A stretch of 60,949 bases of DNA from positions 1 through 60,949 of the forward strand of contig PEWX01000073.1 in the NCBI GenBank assembly GCA_002779995.1. The letters are read 5' to 3'. The notes below the pieces were generated by a model. The model saw only the letters and a program-made list of their open reading frames with translations, had not been told where the DNA came from and ran no database searches. Made by a program: the position numbers and the translations under genes. Source of the stretch: Piscirickettsiaceae bacterium CG07_land_8_20_14_0_80_44_28 (GTDB lineage Bacteria > Pseudomonadota > Gammaproteobacteria > Thiomicrospirales > Thiomicrospiraceae). This document shows, in pieces, positions 131 through 60,712 of this stretch. Each line of letters begins with the position of its first letter. Within the stretch, counting starts at the first letter, position 1.

Positions 131-1609
131 TTATCGATCCAAAAATTCTAAGATAGCCGATTCAATATCATTTTTATCAATCACGCTCTTTTGAGCAATT
201 GGTTTTGCAAACAAGCCGGCAATTTTCGGAGAGATGGGCGTTTCGGCCAATTCAGACACCCTTTTCAGTGCCTTTTCATCATCCGAAAACTTCTCTCCGG
301 TTAACGCATTAGCAACCATGGGCGAAAATTTAGTCCATTCCGCAGTTGAATAAGCAATGGTTTTAATCGTCGGATCTTTCCGGCAAGTATGATAAGGTTT
401 AAAACAAGTTGCAGTATGCGGGCACATTAAATACCCGACCTCAAAGGCTTGTTTAATATAGTCTTTTACCTCGACATCGGTTGAAAAATCCGCCGCAAAA
501 ATACTTTGTATTTGCGCTAATTCGTCCGCAGTCAACGCATAAAACTTTTGCGAATCTAATTGCAACATTAATTCCTTGGTGCGATCTGCGCCAAACAGAT
601 CAAATAGAATGCGCTCAATATTGGAGGATTTTAAAATATCCATGGCAGGTGATGTGGTTGGGATCACAGATTTCCCTCTCAGGTCATACTCGCCGGTCCG
701 AATAAAGTGGGTCAGAATGTTATTTTGGTTAGACGCTATATGAATTTGCGCGACAGGTAAGCCCATTTTATAAGCATAATAACCACCAAGCGCATTACCA
801 AAGTTGCCACTGGGGACATTTAAATAAACACGTTCGCCCAGTGTGATCGCCCCCTGGCGCACCAACTCCAAATAGCTATAAATATGGTAAAGCGTCTGAA
901 AGATAATCCGACCAAAATTCACTGAATTGGCTGCGGACACCGAAATATGTTTTTGTTGCAACTTATCACGAAAAACATCCGAAACCAATAAAGTTTTTAA
1001 TGCCGTTTGCGCATCATCAAAATCGCCATGAATTCCAATTACTTTCAAATTGTCGGCATCTTCTGTCACCATTTGCAAACGTTGAACATCCGAAGTGCCG
1101 CCATCCGGGTACATACACACAACCTGAACATTGTCACGATTTTTAAAGGTTTCTAATGCTGCTGGACCGGTATCCCCGCTGGTTGCGGCGAGTATCAAAT
1201 AGTTTTCATGACGCGCTTTTGCCACTGAAGATAACACCTTCCCAAAAGGTTGTAAGGCCATATCTTTAAAAGCACGTGTTGGGCCATGAAATAATTCACT
1301 CACATACAAGTCGTCATAGACCTTCACCACCGGCACCGGGTTATTGCCATCATCAAACTGGTCATAAAGACTTAAAGCATCGTCAATCACCGTTTCATCA
1401 ATATCAATTTCGAATTGATTCAAGACCGATTTGGCAAGCGTTTTATAGTTGGAGTGTAGATGAGATTGCAAAAATCCGGTATCAAATGTTGGCAGACTTT
1501 CTGGTGAGTAAATCCCGCCGAAAGATGACATTGGGCTTAAAATGGCTTGTGAAAAAGTCATAGAGGTTGGACGTATACCGTCATTTCCCCGTGTTTCAAT
1601 AAAATTCAT
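131..1609 (-). CDS. thrC: threonine synthase
   Basis: Threonine synthase converts O-phospho-L-homoserine to L-threonine with pyridoxal phosphate, in the cytoplasm; it is the last step of the pathway. The protein is 492 aa, longer than E. coli ThrC (about 428). It has the N-terminal threonine-synthase start (MNFIETRGNDG), the PLP-lysine motif HGPTRAFKDMAL with Lys near residue 115, and the ATSGDTGPAA phosphate-binding loop. It is the last gene of the alaC-hom-rpfE-like-thrC run and lies 83 bp after the RpfE-type gene, with no clear terminator between. Family assignment is secure. Confidence 0.96.
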   Translation of the reverse strand: MNFIETRGNDGIRPTSMTFSQAILSPMSSFGGIYSPESLPTFDTGFLQSHLHSNYKTLAKSVLNQFEIDIDETVIDDALSLYDQFDDGNNPVPVVKVYDDLYVSELFHGPTRAFKDMALQPFGKVLSSVAKARHENYLILAATSGDTGPAALETFKNRDNVQVVCMYPDGGTSDVQRLQMVTEDADNLKVIGIHGDFDDAQTALKTLLVSDVFRDKLQQKHISVSAANSVNFGRIIFQTLYHIYSYLELVRQGAITLGERVYLNVPSGNFGNALGGYYAYKMGLPVAQIHIASNQNNILTHFIRTGEYDLRGKSVIPTTSPAMDILKSSNIERILFDLFGADRTKELMLQLDSQKFYALTADELAQIQSIFAADFSTDVEVKDYIKQAFEVGYLMCPHTATCFKPYHTCRKDPTIKTIAYSTAEWTKFSPMVANALTGEKFSDDEKALKRVSELAETPISPKIAGLFAKPIAQKSVIDKNDIESAILEFLDR

Positions 1610-1692: not shown

Positions 1693-2730
1693 TTACAAAT
1701 GGCGGTTCAAGGCTTTACGAAAATGCCAAAATCGTTTTAGATGTTTCGGCGTTAAGTGATAACGTTGCGTTCCGCCAAAGTCCAATAATAATGAATGAAT
1801 TTGTTGCAACTGCAGCTGCTCCAATAGGGGTGAAAACCATTCTACTTCAAGCTGTTTCAAACCCTCTATGCCCGATACCGCCATTGTTTTGTTTGAAAAA
1901 TCATCTAGATGAATTAAATGCTGATCTGACGACTGTTGTGCCGCTAATGTTAGCCAGGCCTGGCTGTTTTTAACCGCATTTTGCGTTAGTGCTTGGGTTC
2001 GCTTGGCCAGCCCTTTTAAATATAAATCATCCGACCACAGGGTTACCTCTTTACGCAAGATCACTTGAGAATGATCATACTGCCCTTCTCCCCAGAACCA
2101 AAGACTATTGATTTCCGGCTGTCCATTCAAGCGTCGCGCTTCATTGACGGGGTGCGTATGAAAGAGCATTTGTGTTTCATTGATCAATTGATGCCAATAG
2201 CGTGCAGCACTCCCTTTTGGGTAAAGACTGTTTACATTCTGATAGATCGCATCGATCAAAGGGGTGGTGGTCAAATCAATAATCTGGGGCAATCGACAAT
2301 ACCAGTCTTGGTGTGACCCCCATTCGAGCTGAAGTCCATCCACTTTAAAATGACGATTAAACGCCTCAAATAACGCCTCAGATTCGGCAGCAGTGATTGA
2401 TAAGGTTTCGGGTGGCATCATGACTAAACTGTCGCGATCGGCAATCATCTGAACAGGTTCGGCTCTGATCCAAAAATCCTTACCGCTATCGGTGATTTGC
2501 GTTGCTGCCATCGTGGAGGCAACGGGCAGCGTCTGCTGTTGATGAAATAAATAGCAACCTCGGCTGTAAAAGTCATCCGCTACCGCACCAAAAGCATCGG
2601 CTTTAGCCAGCAGCACCTGCAAAGCAGGAAGTTTCAATGATGATAATTCCTCACGTGGCTGTGATTTTAAAGTGTCACCCAGTTTGGGAAGCCACAGCGT
2701 CACCGCATGTGAAAATTCAGTCATTTTCAA
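1693..2730 (-). CDS. RpfE-type phosphoglycerate mutase-like protein
   Basis: A 345-aa cytoplasmic protein of the family annotated as 'regulatory protein, RpfE type' or cofactor-independent phosphoglycerate mutase-like. The diagnostic stretch near residues 200-220, NEARRLNGQPEINSLWFWG, followed by an acidic/aromatic segment, is typical of the family. The metal-binding motifs of true phosphoglycerate mutase are not evident, so enzymatic activity is doubtful. It starts 28 bp after hom and precedes thrC, so it is probably co-transcribed with threonine genes. Relatives often sit beside recJ, which is not seen here. The name reflects similarity; its role is not established. Confidence 0.75.
   Translation of the reverse strand: MKMTEFSHAVTLWLPKLGDTLKSQPREELSSLKLPALQVLLAKADAFGAVADDFYSRGCYLFHQQQTLPVASTMAATQITDSGKDFWIRAEPVQMIADRDSLVMMPPETLSITAAESEALFEAFNRHFKVDGLQLEWGSHQDWYCRLPQIIDLTTTPLIDAIYQNVNSLYPKGSAARYWHQLINETQMLFHTHPVNEARRLNGQPEINSLWFWGEGQYDHSQVILRKEVTLWSDDLYLKGLAKRTQALTQNAVKNSQAWLTLAAQQSSDQHLIHLDDFSNKTMAVSGIEGLKQLEVEWFSPLLEQLQLQQIHSLLLDFGGTQRYHLTPKHLKRFWHFRKALNRHL
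1954..1963. repeat. CCAGGCCTGG copy 1
   Basis: Exact copy inside the RpfE-type gene, read there as Gln-Ala-Trp. The right flank is CTGTTTTTAA. Confidence 0.85.
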
Positions 2731-59574: not shown

Positions 59575-60561
59575 TTACACCGACAAAACATCAAACGGAC
59601 TCACCACCCCCTGCCCGCCTTGTTTTAACACATGCATATAAATCATCGTGGTTTCAATATTTGCATGCCCCAACAAAGCTTGAATGGTGCGAATATCCGT
59701 ACCCGTCTGCAACAAATGCGTCGCAAATGAGTGGCGAAAAGTATGCGCACTGACTTTTTTAACAATGCTGCACTTTTTCACTGCACGCTTTATCGCCTTA
59801 TTCACCAACGACTGATCTACATGATGACGGCGTGTCAGACCCGAACGCGGGTCATCCGCCAAATTACGGCTGGGAAACACATACTGCCAAGCCAACGCCT
59901 TATCGGCATTCGGATATATTTTCGCCAAAGCATAAGGCAAATACACCGAACCAAAACCCTGTTCCAAATCTTGATCATGCAGCGTTTTTACCTTTTGCAA
60001 CTGCGCCTCCAACAAGGGAATTAAATTGTTCGCCAAAGGCGTCACTCGATCCTTTTTACCCTTGCCATCACGCACCGTAATTTGCCTAAACCCAAAATCA
60101 ATATCCTGAACCCTTAAACGCACCGCCTCAGTAATGCGCAAACCACCCGCATAAAGCAACTTAGTAATCAAACCCGTTGTGCCATCCATTATCGACAAAA
60201 CCTGCCCAACCTCCTCCTTAGTCAACACCACCGGAATGCGCGGTTCTTTGCGCGAGCGACTGGCTTTCACTTCCGTAAAAGGCGCATCAAGTACCTTACT
60301 ATAACAATACACCAACGCATTCAATGCCTGGTTTTGCGTTGACGGCGCCACATTTTGCACAACCGCCAAATCGGTTAAAAACTGGTCAACTTTAGCAGAA
60401 GCATCATTCAACATCTCATCTCGGTTAGCAAAACCATGAAATTTCACAAACCGCCGCACCCAATCGCAATAACTATTCTCAGTAGAATACGCATAACCTT
60501 CTCTGCGTAATTTAGCCCGCATTTCATCTAGCAATGATAATTTTTTTAGCGTATGATTCAT
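59575..60561 (-). CDS. intI: integron integrase IntI
   Basis: Tyrosine recombinase that inserts and excises gene cassettes at attI/attC. The 328-aa protein has the catalytic set Arg142 (GGLRITEA), Lys near 167, His273-x-x-Arg276 (HTFRHSFATHLL), His299 (LLGHANIETT) and Tyr308. The extra segment between patches II and III, 'LAWQYVFPSRNLADDPRSGLTRRHH' (about 223-247), is the IntI-specific insertion that separates integrases from XerC/D. It is read away from the right edge, with attI and cassettes on the other side, as expected for an integron. Frame and start ATG are intact. Confidence 0.95.
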   Translation of the reverse strand: MNHTLKKLSLLDEMRAKLRREGYAYSTENSYCDWVRRFVKFHGFANRDEMLNDASAKVDQFLTDLAVVQNVAPSTQNQALNALVYCYSKVLDAPFTEVKASRSRKEPRIPVVLTKEEVGQVLSIMDGTTGLITKLLYAGGLRITEAVRLRVQDIDFGFRQITVRDGKGKKDRVTPLANNLIPLLEAQLQKVKTLHDQDLEQGFGSVYLPYALAKIYPNADKALAWQYVFPSRNLADDPRSGLTRRHHVDQSLVNKAIKRAVKKCSIVKKVSAHTFRHSFATHLLQTGTDIRTIQALLGHANIETTMIYMHVLKQGGQGVVSPFDVLSV

Positions 60562-60602
60562 AAAAGCGTTACTTCATAATGACAGAAAAACTAAGATAAT
60601 AT

Positions 60603-60630
60603 TCTATAACCTGTCAATTTGACAGGTCAA
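60603..60630 (-). promoter_or_regulatory. promoter of intI
   Basis: Minus strand TTGACC (60625-60630), 16-bp spacer, TATAGA (60603-60608). The start codon is about 42 bp further on. The palindrome at 60609-60627 fills the spacer. Confidence 0.6.
60609..60627. promoter_or_regulatory. perfect palindromic operator in the intI promoter
   Basis: ACCTGTCAATTTGACAGGT, 8-bp arms and 3-bp centre, between the -35 and -10 of intI. It contains CTGT-N7-ACAG, one base short of the E. coli LexA spacing, so SOS control is possible but unproven. Confidence 0.6.
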
Positions 60631-60705
60631 TAGTAATATAAAAGCAAAATAACCCAAAATAACGCGCAATACACTATAACAAGGCAAAAGTGCCTTATAC
60701 TAAAT

Positions 60706-60712
60706 GTTAGGC
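60706..60712 (+). other. probable attI crossover core
   Basis: GTTAGGC fits the GTTRRRY consensus at which cassettes are joined (G-TT). It is upstream of the intI start, on the proper side, and 18 bp before the first cassette ORF. Confidence 0.55.

Follow-up and report, generated by a model that had tools for sequence, protein, structure and literature searches.

In the genome of Piscirickettsiaceae bacterium CG07_land_8_20_14_0_80_44_28, a relative of marine sulfur oxidizers, a perfect 19-bp palindrome lies immediately upstream of the chromosomal integron integrase gene intI, where it is probably the main operator for a dimeric repressor other than LexA, be it a host protein or IntI itself. 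We put the probability of this reading at roughly 0.6. As the preliminary description of this DNA had claimed, the palindrome, ACCTGTCAATTTGACAGGT, is found at 60609-60627 of the window (the whole stretch of 60,949 nt that was analysed), a single base separating its two perfectly complementary 9-bp arms. Its core, CTGT-N7-ACAG, was also rightly described as one base shorter than the E. coli LexA box; the N7 spacing, against the N8 of LexA boxes in beta/gammaproteobacteria, is seen both in the window and in the aligned relatives. The gene downstream encodes an intact integron integrase of 328 aa (TIGR02249, scoring 410.5 bits where the cut-off is 265), and 46 bp separate the 21-bp motif AACCTGT-N7-ACAGGTT from its start codon. 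This IntI is 87% identical to that of Hydrogenovibrio sp. SC-1, followed at 85% by Allopseudospirillum japonicum and at 73-85% by Thiomicrorhabdus species. Judged by these closest relatives found, the window very likely belongs to the Hydrogenovibrio/Thiomicrorhabdus group. An attI-type block, TAACATTTAGTATAAGGCA (60691-60709), is found again beside intI in relatives, and the window thus holds the intI gene and the adjoining attI that define an integron platform. We take the attI core to be of the GTTRRRY type. Coordinates are collected in Table 1.

Table 1. Features of the window and of related loci discussed in the text.
Feature	Position	Strand	Basis or remark
intI, integron integrase, 328 aa	window 59575..60561	(-)	TIGR02249; 87% identity to SC-1 IntI
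Main operator O1 (predicted), AACCTGT-N7-ACAGGTT type	window 60608..60628	(-)	sequence; dyad kept in 20 aligned promoters/relics
CTGTCA half-site, place of a second, better operator copy in some relatives (centre near -18)	window 60580..60585	(-)	sequence, alignment
attI recombination site core TGCCTTATACTAAATGTTAGGC, ending GTTAGGC	window 60691..60712	(+)	sequence
Candidate promoter, CTGTCA (60625-60620)-18 bp-TATTAT (60601-60596)	window 60596..60625	(-)	inferred; columns conserved in relatives
Alternative promoter, TTGACC-18 bp-TAGAAT	window 60601..60630	(-)	best consensus match in window; TTGACC not kept in relatives
intI relic with attI and broken intI start	L142 (C97) 2074-2324		good operator
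intI relic without intI	L143 (C42) 588-751		good operator
intI relic	L032 (C45) near 1501		degraded operator
UmuD-like S24 protein, adjoining divergent umuC in source genome	L027 3229-5293		also L114-L123
Short S24 protein, conserved, 153 aa in source genome	L027 17570-18031		also L124-L133

Taken by itself, the palindrome is within chance: a perfect palindrome of the 9-1-9 type occurs once in the whole window, and when the window was simulated 20 times with a first-order Markov model, four of the simulated sequences also had at least one (mean 0.25). What counts as evidence is that it sits in the intI promoter and is conserved. Without gaps, 21 promoters and relic promoters of intI could be aligned, the rows being related and anchored on the motif, which is a source of bias, and their consensus is A-AACCTGT-N7-ACAGGTT-ATACNNTATTAT. 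With one mis-anchored row (G026) dropped, the complementarity of the arms over 20 rows is 0.615 at the operator centre, as opposed to a mean of 0.270 (sd 0.062) over all centres of the alignment; because of the relatedness of the rows and their anchoring, this figure is support and not a probability. The three pairs of the TGT-N7-ACA core are complementary in 17, 19 and 15 of the 20 rows and the outermost pair in 16, and the arms of the dyad are kept in relatives despite differing central 7 bases.

A similar picture emerges from a scan of 21 intI upstream regions, in which the motif was scored out of 20 with a consensus derived from part of the same set (four of the 20 loci from the IntI relative search, L018, L020, L021 and L024, were left out). 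Eight regions score at least 17 at -53 to -59 (the window, L007, L008, L009, L012, L023, L025 and L026), and four have a weaker site at this place (L017, 16; L011, 15; L010 and L019, 13 each). The best scores in 2100 shuffles had a mean of 12.2, 95th, 99th and 99.9th percentiles of 14, 15 and 16.9, and a maximum of 17, which the sites of L009, L012 and L023 only equal. Within the group whose IntI is 73-74% identical, L013 has the core in a palindrome at -108 (score 17) as well as a copy at -80 that scores poorly (14), and the copies in L014 and L075 all fall within the shuffle range. The scan found no such site upstream of the distant intI genes of L015, L016, L022, L078, L081 and L082. L081 and L082, which come from the same family as the source genome, carry a different type of integron, with IntI 52-54% identical and an intI promoter without the operator.

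Seven of the 12 promoters with a site at -53 to -59 precede an intact intI (the window, L007, L008, L009, L010, L011 and L017), and in the other five intI is broken or missing (L012, L019, L023, L025 and L026). Together with G014, which lay outside the upstream scan and has an intact intI and the motif with 0 mismatches, a strong main site stands before five intact intI genes (the window, L007, L008, L009 and G014); before three others, those of L010, L011 and L017, the main site is weak. In this group intI is often broken, a state that Cambray et al. 2011 connect with the loss of LexA control (PMC3108266). Some promoters have more than one copy of the motif. A second copy scoring 16-17 is found at -18 or -19 in L010 (16), L011 (17) and L023, the last having a further copy at -86 with a score of 14, equal to the 95th percentile of the shuffles, and a CTGTCA half-site near -18 is kept in several other promoters, including that of the window. 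Such additional copies, near -18 or farther upstream, point to a small array of operators.

Regarding the promoter, it had been proposed that the palindrome fills the spacer of a good promoter, TTGACC-16-TATAGA. The letters of both hexamers are there, at 60630-60625 and 60608-60603, respectively, but the palindrome overlaps the last three bases of TTGACC, and the pair itself, which relatives do not keep, does not stand as the best candidate. On the intI strand of the window, the promoter scan scores other pairs higher, namely TTGACC-18-TAGAAT (10/12) and CTGTCA-18-TATTAT (9/12). In the aligned relatives TTGACC is not conserved, unlike the columns of TATTAT and of the left-arm TG, and so the -35 element is probably overlapped by the left arm, the right arm falling inside the spacer.

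How closely the motif is confined to intI was followed in the source genome and beyond. Allowing up to three mismatches to CCTGTCAANTTGACAGG, the source genome has 12 matching places: intI, two relics, eight positions inside ORFs and one intergenic site (C88). Additional near-matches lie inside an ORF (C118), in an intergenic region (C52) and in a degraded relic (C45). The strong copies are those at intI and at the relics on contigs C97 and C42. Three intI relics in this genome keep the promoter region, two of them with a good operator, intI being broken or gone. The match on C88, TGCTTGTCAAATTCACAGTTA (L139, near 1217), scores 15/20 and sits in the gap before a DAHP synthase-like gene; it is a possible second target, and both weak intergenic matches, C88 and C52, may be either chance or real further targets. 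At the level of the family, a match with at most two mismatches turns up in 45 of 62 genomes, and a reversed-pattern control also matches in many. Among 49 family loci examined (some overlapping, and part of all the listed places), 22 matches are in an ORF of at least 90 aa, five are at intI or a relic, and 22, representing fewer distinct places, adjoin other genes, either in a gap or at the end of a gene. Of these last, a single place recurred, flanked by the same gene pair in two g2 genomes (L037, L038); one site lies before a clpB-like gene (L100, G051), with an identical copy in G042. Because of the weak intergenic matches on C88 and C52 and the many family matches beside other genes, exclusiveness to intI is not proven: specificity holds for the source genome and for the strong sites, not family-wide.

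On viral contigs the exact palindrome occurs in four stretches. These were taken as chance, since three (L110, L111 and L113, of which L111 and L113 are near-copies) lie inside ORFs, and the fourth (L112), in a gap, is followed by a T-run and is terminator-like. A search of plasmids for similar promoter DNA found none, and the IntI proteins on plasmids are distant, with less than 60% identity in all of the best 5000 records. Around intI and its relics, no regulator-like gene recurs among 27 loci (ORFs of at least 60 aa, short flanks); besides intI and overlapping ORFs, the widest-shared genes are a GST-like gene and its neighbour (window, L025 and G022).

Which protein could bind the site? The preliminary description offered a lineage-specific LexA or another repressor. 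The second half of this proposal gains from the dyad kept at a fixed place in intI promoters. The first half, a LexA site, is not supported, because PF01726, the DNA-binding domain of LexA, is missing in the source genome, which is 99.99% complete, and in 58 of the 62 family genomes. The four family genomes with weak PF01726 matches, two of them above the cut-off, all belong to genus g2 and have no match to the IntI of the window at E 1e-30. The g2 genome inspected (L035 1096-1760) encodes a LexA-like protein of 192 aa, and its gene is preceded by three GAAC-N4-GTTC palindromes; this box differs from the intI motif and resembles the Gram-positive LexA box. Outside this set, six further genomes of unstated completeness were searched. 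PF01726 is found in one, L016, whose intI promoter is without the operator, and is absent from the other five, which include the genomes of an uncultured gammaproteobacterium (L026) and of Allopseudospirillum japonicum (L008).

The proposed comparison with sites before lexA and recA gave no counterpart of the intI motif: its best score is 12 before recA of the source genome and 14 before the gene upstream of recA, and scores in 10 umuD upstream regions are 11-15, where 15 is the 99th percentile of the shuffles. The UmuD-like gene is preceded instead by a different conserved palindrome. This comes close to the outcome that had been named in advance as speaking against LexA, namely a different conserved palindrome upstream of lexA or recA together with no LexA binding at intI.

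Each of the 10 genomes searched encodes two S24-peptidase proteins, one UmuD-like and N-terminally extended (the extension was read in all 10) and one shorter. In both proteins of the source genome, Pfam finds the peptidase only and no DNA-binding domain. By analogy with UmuDAb, the UmuD-like protein is a candidate substitute for LexA; it may act as a repressor, in which case its N-terminal extension could have the DNA-binding role. An AlphaFold model of this protein has a mean pLDDT of 37.9 and carries no conclusion. The short S24 protein, for its part, passes the LexA cut-off through its peptidase half alone. Upstream of the UmuD-like gene, TTGA-N5-GTWAC-N5-TCAA is present in all 10 genomes, which are related, with 0-3 mismatches (mean 1.6), compared with a mean of 4.66 and a lowest mean of 4.2 for shuffles of these regions; among spacers N2 to N8, only N5 stands out. 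This is probably the damage box of the family. The claim is drawn from the 10 umuD upstream regions and not from a search of 62 genomes, where genes were unassigned and most genomes exceeded the reversed control (10 versus 2 in the source genome among the matches listed). The 10 intI promoters compared are 3-6 mismatches away from the box (four in the window), that is, it is not present there. Because intI promoters are without the umuD box, and umuD and recA upstream regions are without the intI motif, an SOS-like repressor of the UmuD type, if present, would have a site other than the intI operator.

The mechanism that we propose on the basis of these sequence comparisons is as follows. A dimeric non-LexA repressor would bind AACCTGT-N7-ACAGGTT, with one half-site over the -35 element and the other in the spacer, and would thereby block RNA polymerase at Pint. 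The integrase would stay silent until some signal lifts the repressor, and the secondary sites would assist repression in some relatives. What the sequences show is the site, where it lies, its conserved dyad and the lack of a LexA DNA-binding domain; we infer protein binding, repression, the promoter and the role of the site mainly at intI. The sequences compared are related, and some of the conservation may be that of the promoter as such. Our confidence in the operator is reduced by the broken intI genes, the three weak main sites before intact intI, and the weak matches elsewhere.

Several other explanations have to be set against this one. IntI could bind the palindrome and repress its own promoter, such that the operator travels with intI and no host regulator is needed. 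The distribution fits well: the motif tracks the IntI lineage, being present at about 80-87% identity (four weakened), altered at 73-74% and absent with IntI of 52-65% identity even within the same family; Allopseudospirillum japonicum, too, has it upstream of an intact intI; and intI is the sole widely shared gene of the neighbourhood. The motif is, however, unlike the attI block, and simple descent of the promoter predicts the same distribution, and we regard self-control by IntI as unlikely, if not negligibly so. It is also conceivable that no regulator is involved at all: the letters would then be conserved simply as part of the promoter and of the sequence next to attI, and a moderately symmetric promoter would happen to form a perfect palindrome in the window. 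The 9-1-9 palindromes in 4 of 20 simulated windows, the hexamer-like letters that overlap the arms and the weak main site before three intact intI would suit such an account. Against it stand the arms, conserved as a dyad although the central 7 bases differ, and the palindrome of L013, which has the identical core but lies elsewhere, at -108. We consider it improbable.

A link to the DNA-damage response would follow if a lineage-specific LexA or the UmuD-like S24 protein bound the site. The half-sites CTGT/ACAG are similar to those of E. coli LexA boxes, the UmuD-like protein with its N-terminal extension is found in 10 of 10 genomes, and UmuDAb substitutes for LexA in Acinetobacter (PMC11332147). 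A LexA is disfavoured by the missing DNA-binding domain in the source genome and in 58 of 62 family genomes, and a UmuD-like protein by the separate box of its own gene, which is missing from intI promoters, and by intI motif scores before umuD (11-15) and source recA (12) that lie within the shuffle range (99th percentile 15). Control of intI through either protein appears quite improbable. We give even less credence to a site for a MerR-like activator in a long-spacer promoter, to which the position of the palindrome in the spacer bears some resemblance, the hexamers of the better pairs being 18 bp apart. MerR-type promoters have the palindrome within a spacer of 19-20 bp, which is longer than the 18 bp here; moreover, the extra copies near -18 in some relatives suit a repressor array better, and no regulator gene recurs beside intI.

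Relative to known systems, the predicted operator is closest in layout to those of LexA-controlled integrases (class 1 and Vibrio chromosomal integrons), in which a palindromic operator overlaps the intI promoter, an arrangement that would silence the integrase (PMC3108266; PMC8876359). It differs from them in the N7 instead of the N8 spacing, in its longer arms AACCTGT/ACAGGTT, in hosts without a LexA DNA-binding domain, and in having no such site before recA or umuD; the E. coli LexA box itself is given as CTGT(N8)ACAG (PMC11332147). Besides the many integrases silenced by LexA, PMC8876359 describes control by FIS, IHF, H-NS, CRP-cAMP and transcriptional interference from Pc. These are likewise independent of LexA; however, they are global factors or promoter interference, whereas here a dedicated perfect operator is predicted whose conservation follows a single IntI lineage. 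In Acinetobacter, the UmuDAb box (TTGA-N4-GTWAC-N4-TCAA; PMC11332147) is comparable as the operator of an S24-type repressor in bacteria without LexA, but is unlike the intI motif in letters and layout; the umuD box of the present family has one more base per spacer (N5 versus N4) and stands before umuD, not intI. Operator control of integrases is already known through LexA; a non-LexA intI operator of this type would be new. The lux box of LuxR-type regulators, ACCTGTA-N6-TACAGGT, shares the outer half-site ACCTGT/ACAGGT with the intI motif; it is 20 bp long and the intI palindrome 19. The LuxR autoinducer-binding domain (PF03472) is absent from six of seven genomes searched, the source genome included, and present in G011.

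The intI promoters analysed by Cambray et al. 2011 had E. coli-type LexA motifs only, other types being completely absent, and an alternative transcription factor was named there as an obvious possibility needing exploration (PMC3108266). Our result bears on this question, which was left open: a conserved predicted operator in a LexA-less lineage is a concrete DNA bait for such a factor, and it points to hosts whose gene capture may answer to something besides DNA damage. In the literature on intI control, searched mostly outside subscription journals, no report of an AACCTGT-N7-ACAGGTT operator was found. Searches on lexA or the SOS response in Thiomicrospira found nothing (Thiomicrospira crunogena with lexA gave only the genome paper of another organism), and those on integrons in Hydrogenovibrio returned carbonic anhydrases only. 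More broadly, and tentatively, as something possible rather than expected, this could be an integron lineage with its own SOS-independent control, in which an operator array bound by IntI or by one dedicated non-LexA regulator is inherited and transferred with intI among LexA-less gammaproteobacteria. If that were true, cassette capture would no longer depend on DNA damage; a different signal, or the amount of integrase present, would govern it.

The window has one further repeated feature. The palindrome CCAGGCCTGG occurs 14 times in the 60,949 bases (for example at 1954, 5655 and 59558), which makes it the most frequent 10-mer, and it is often flanked by A-runs before and T-runs after. It is perhaps akin to an uptake or HIP1-type sequence. 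Contig C97 carries five copies of it in 9.9 kb, and C42 has four in 4.4 kb.
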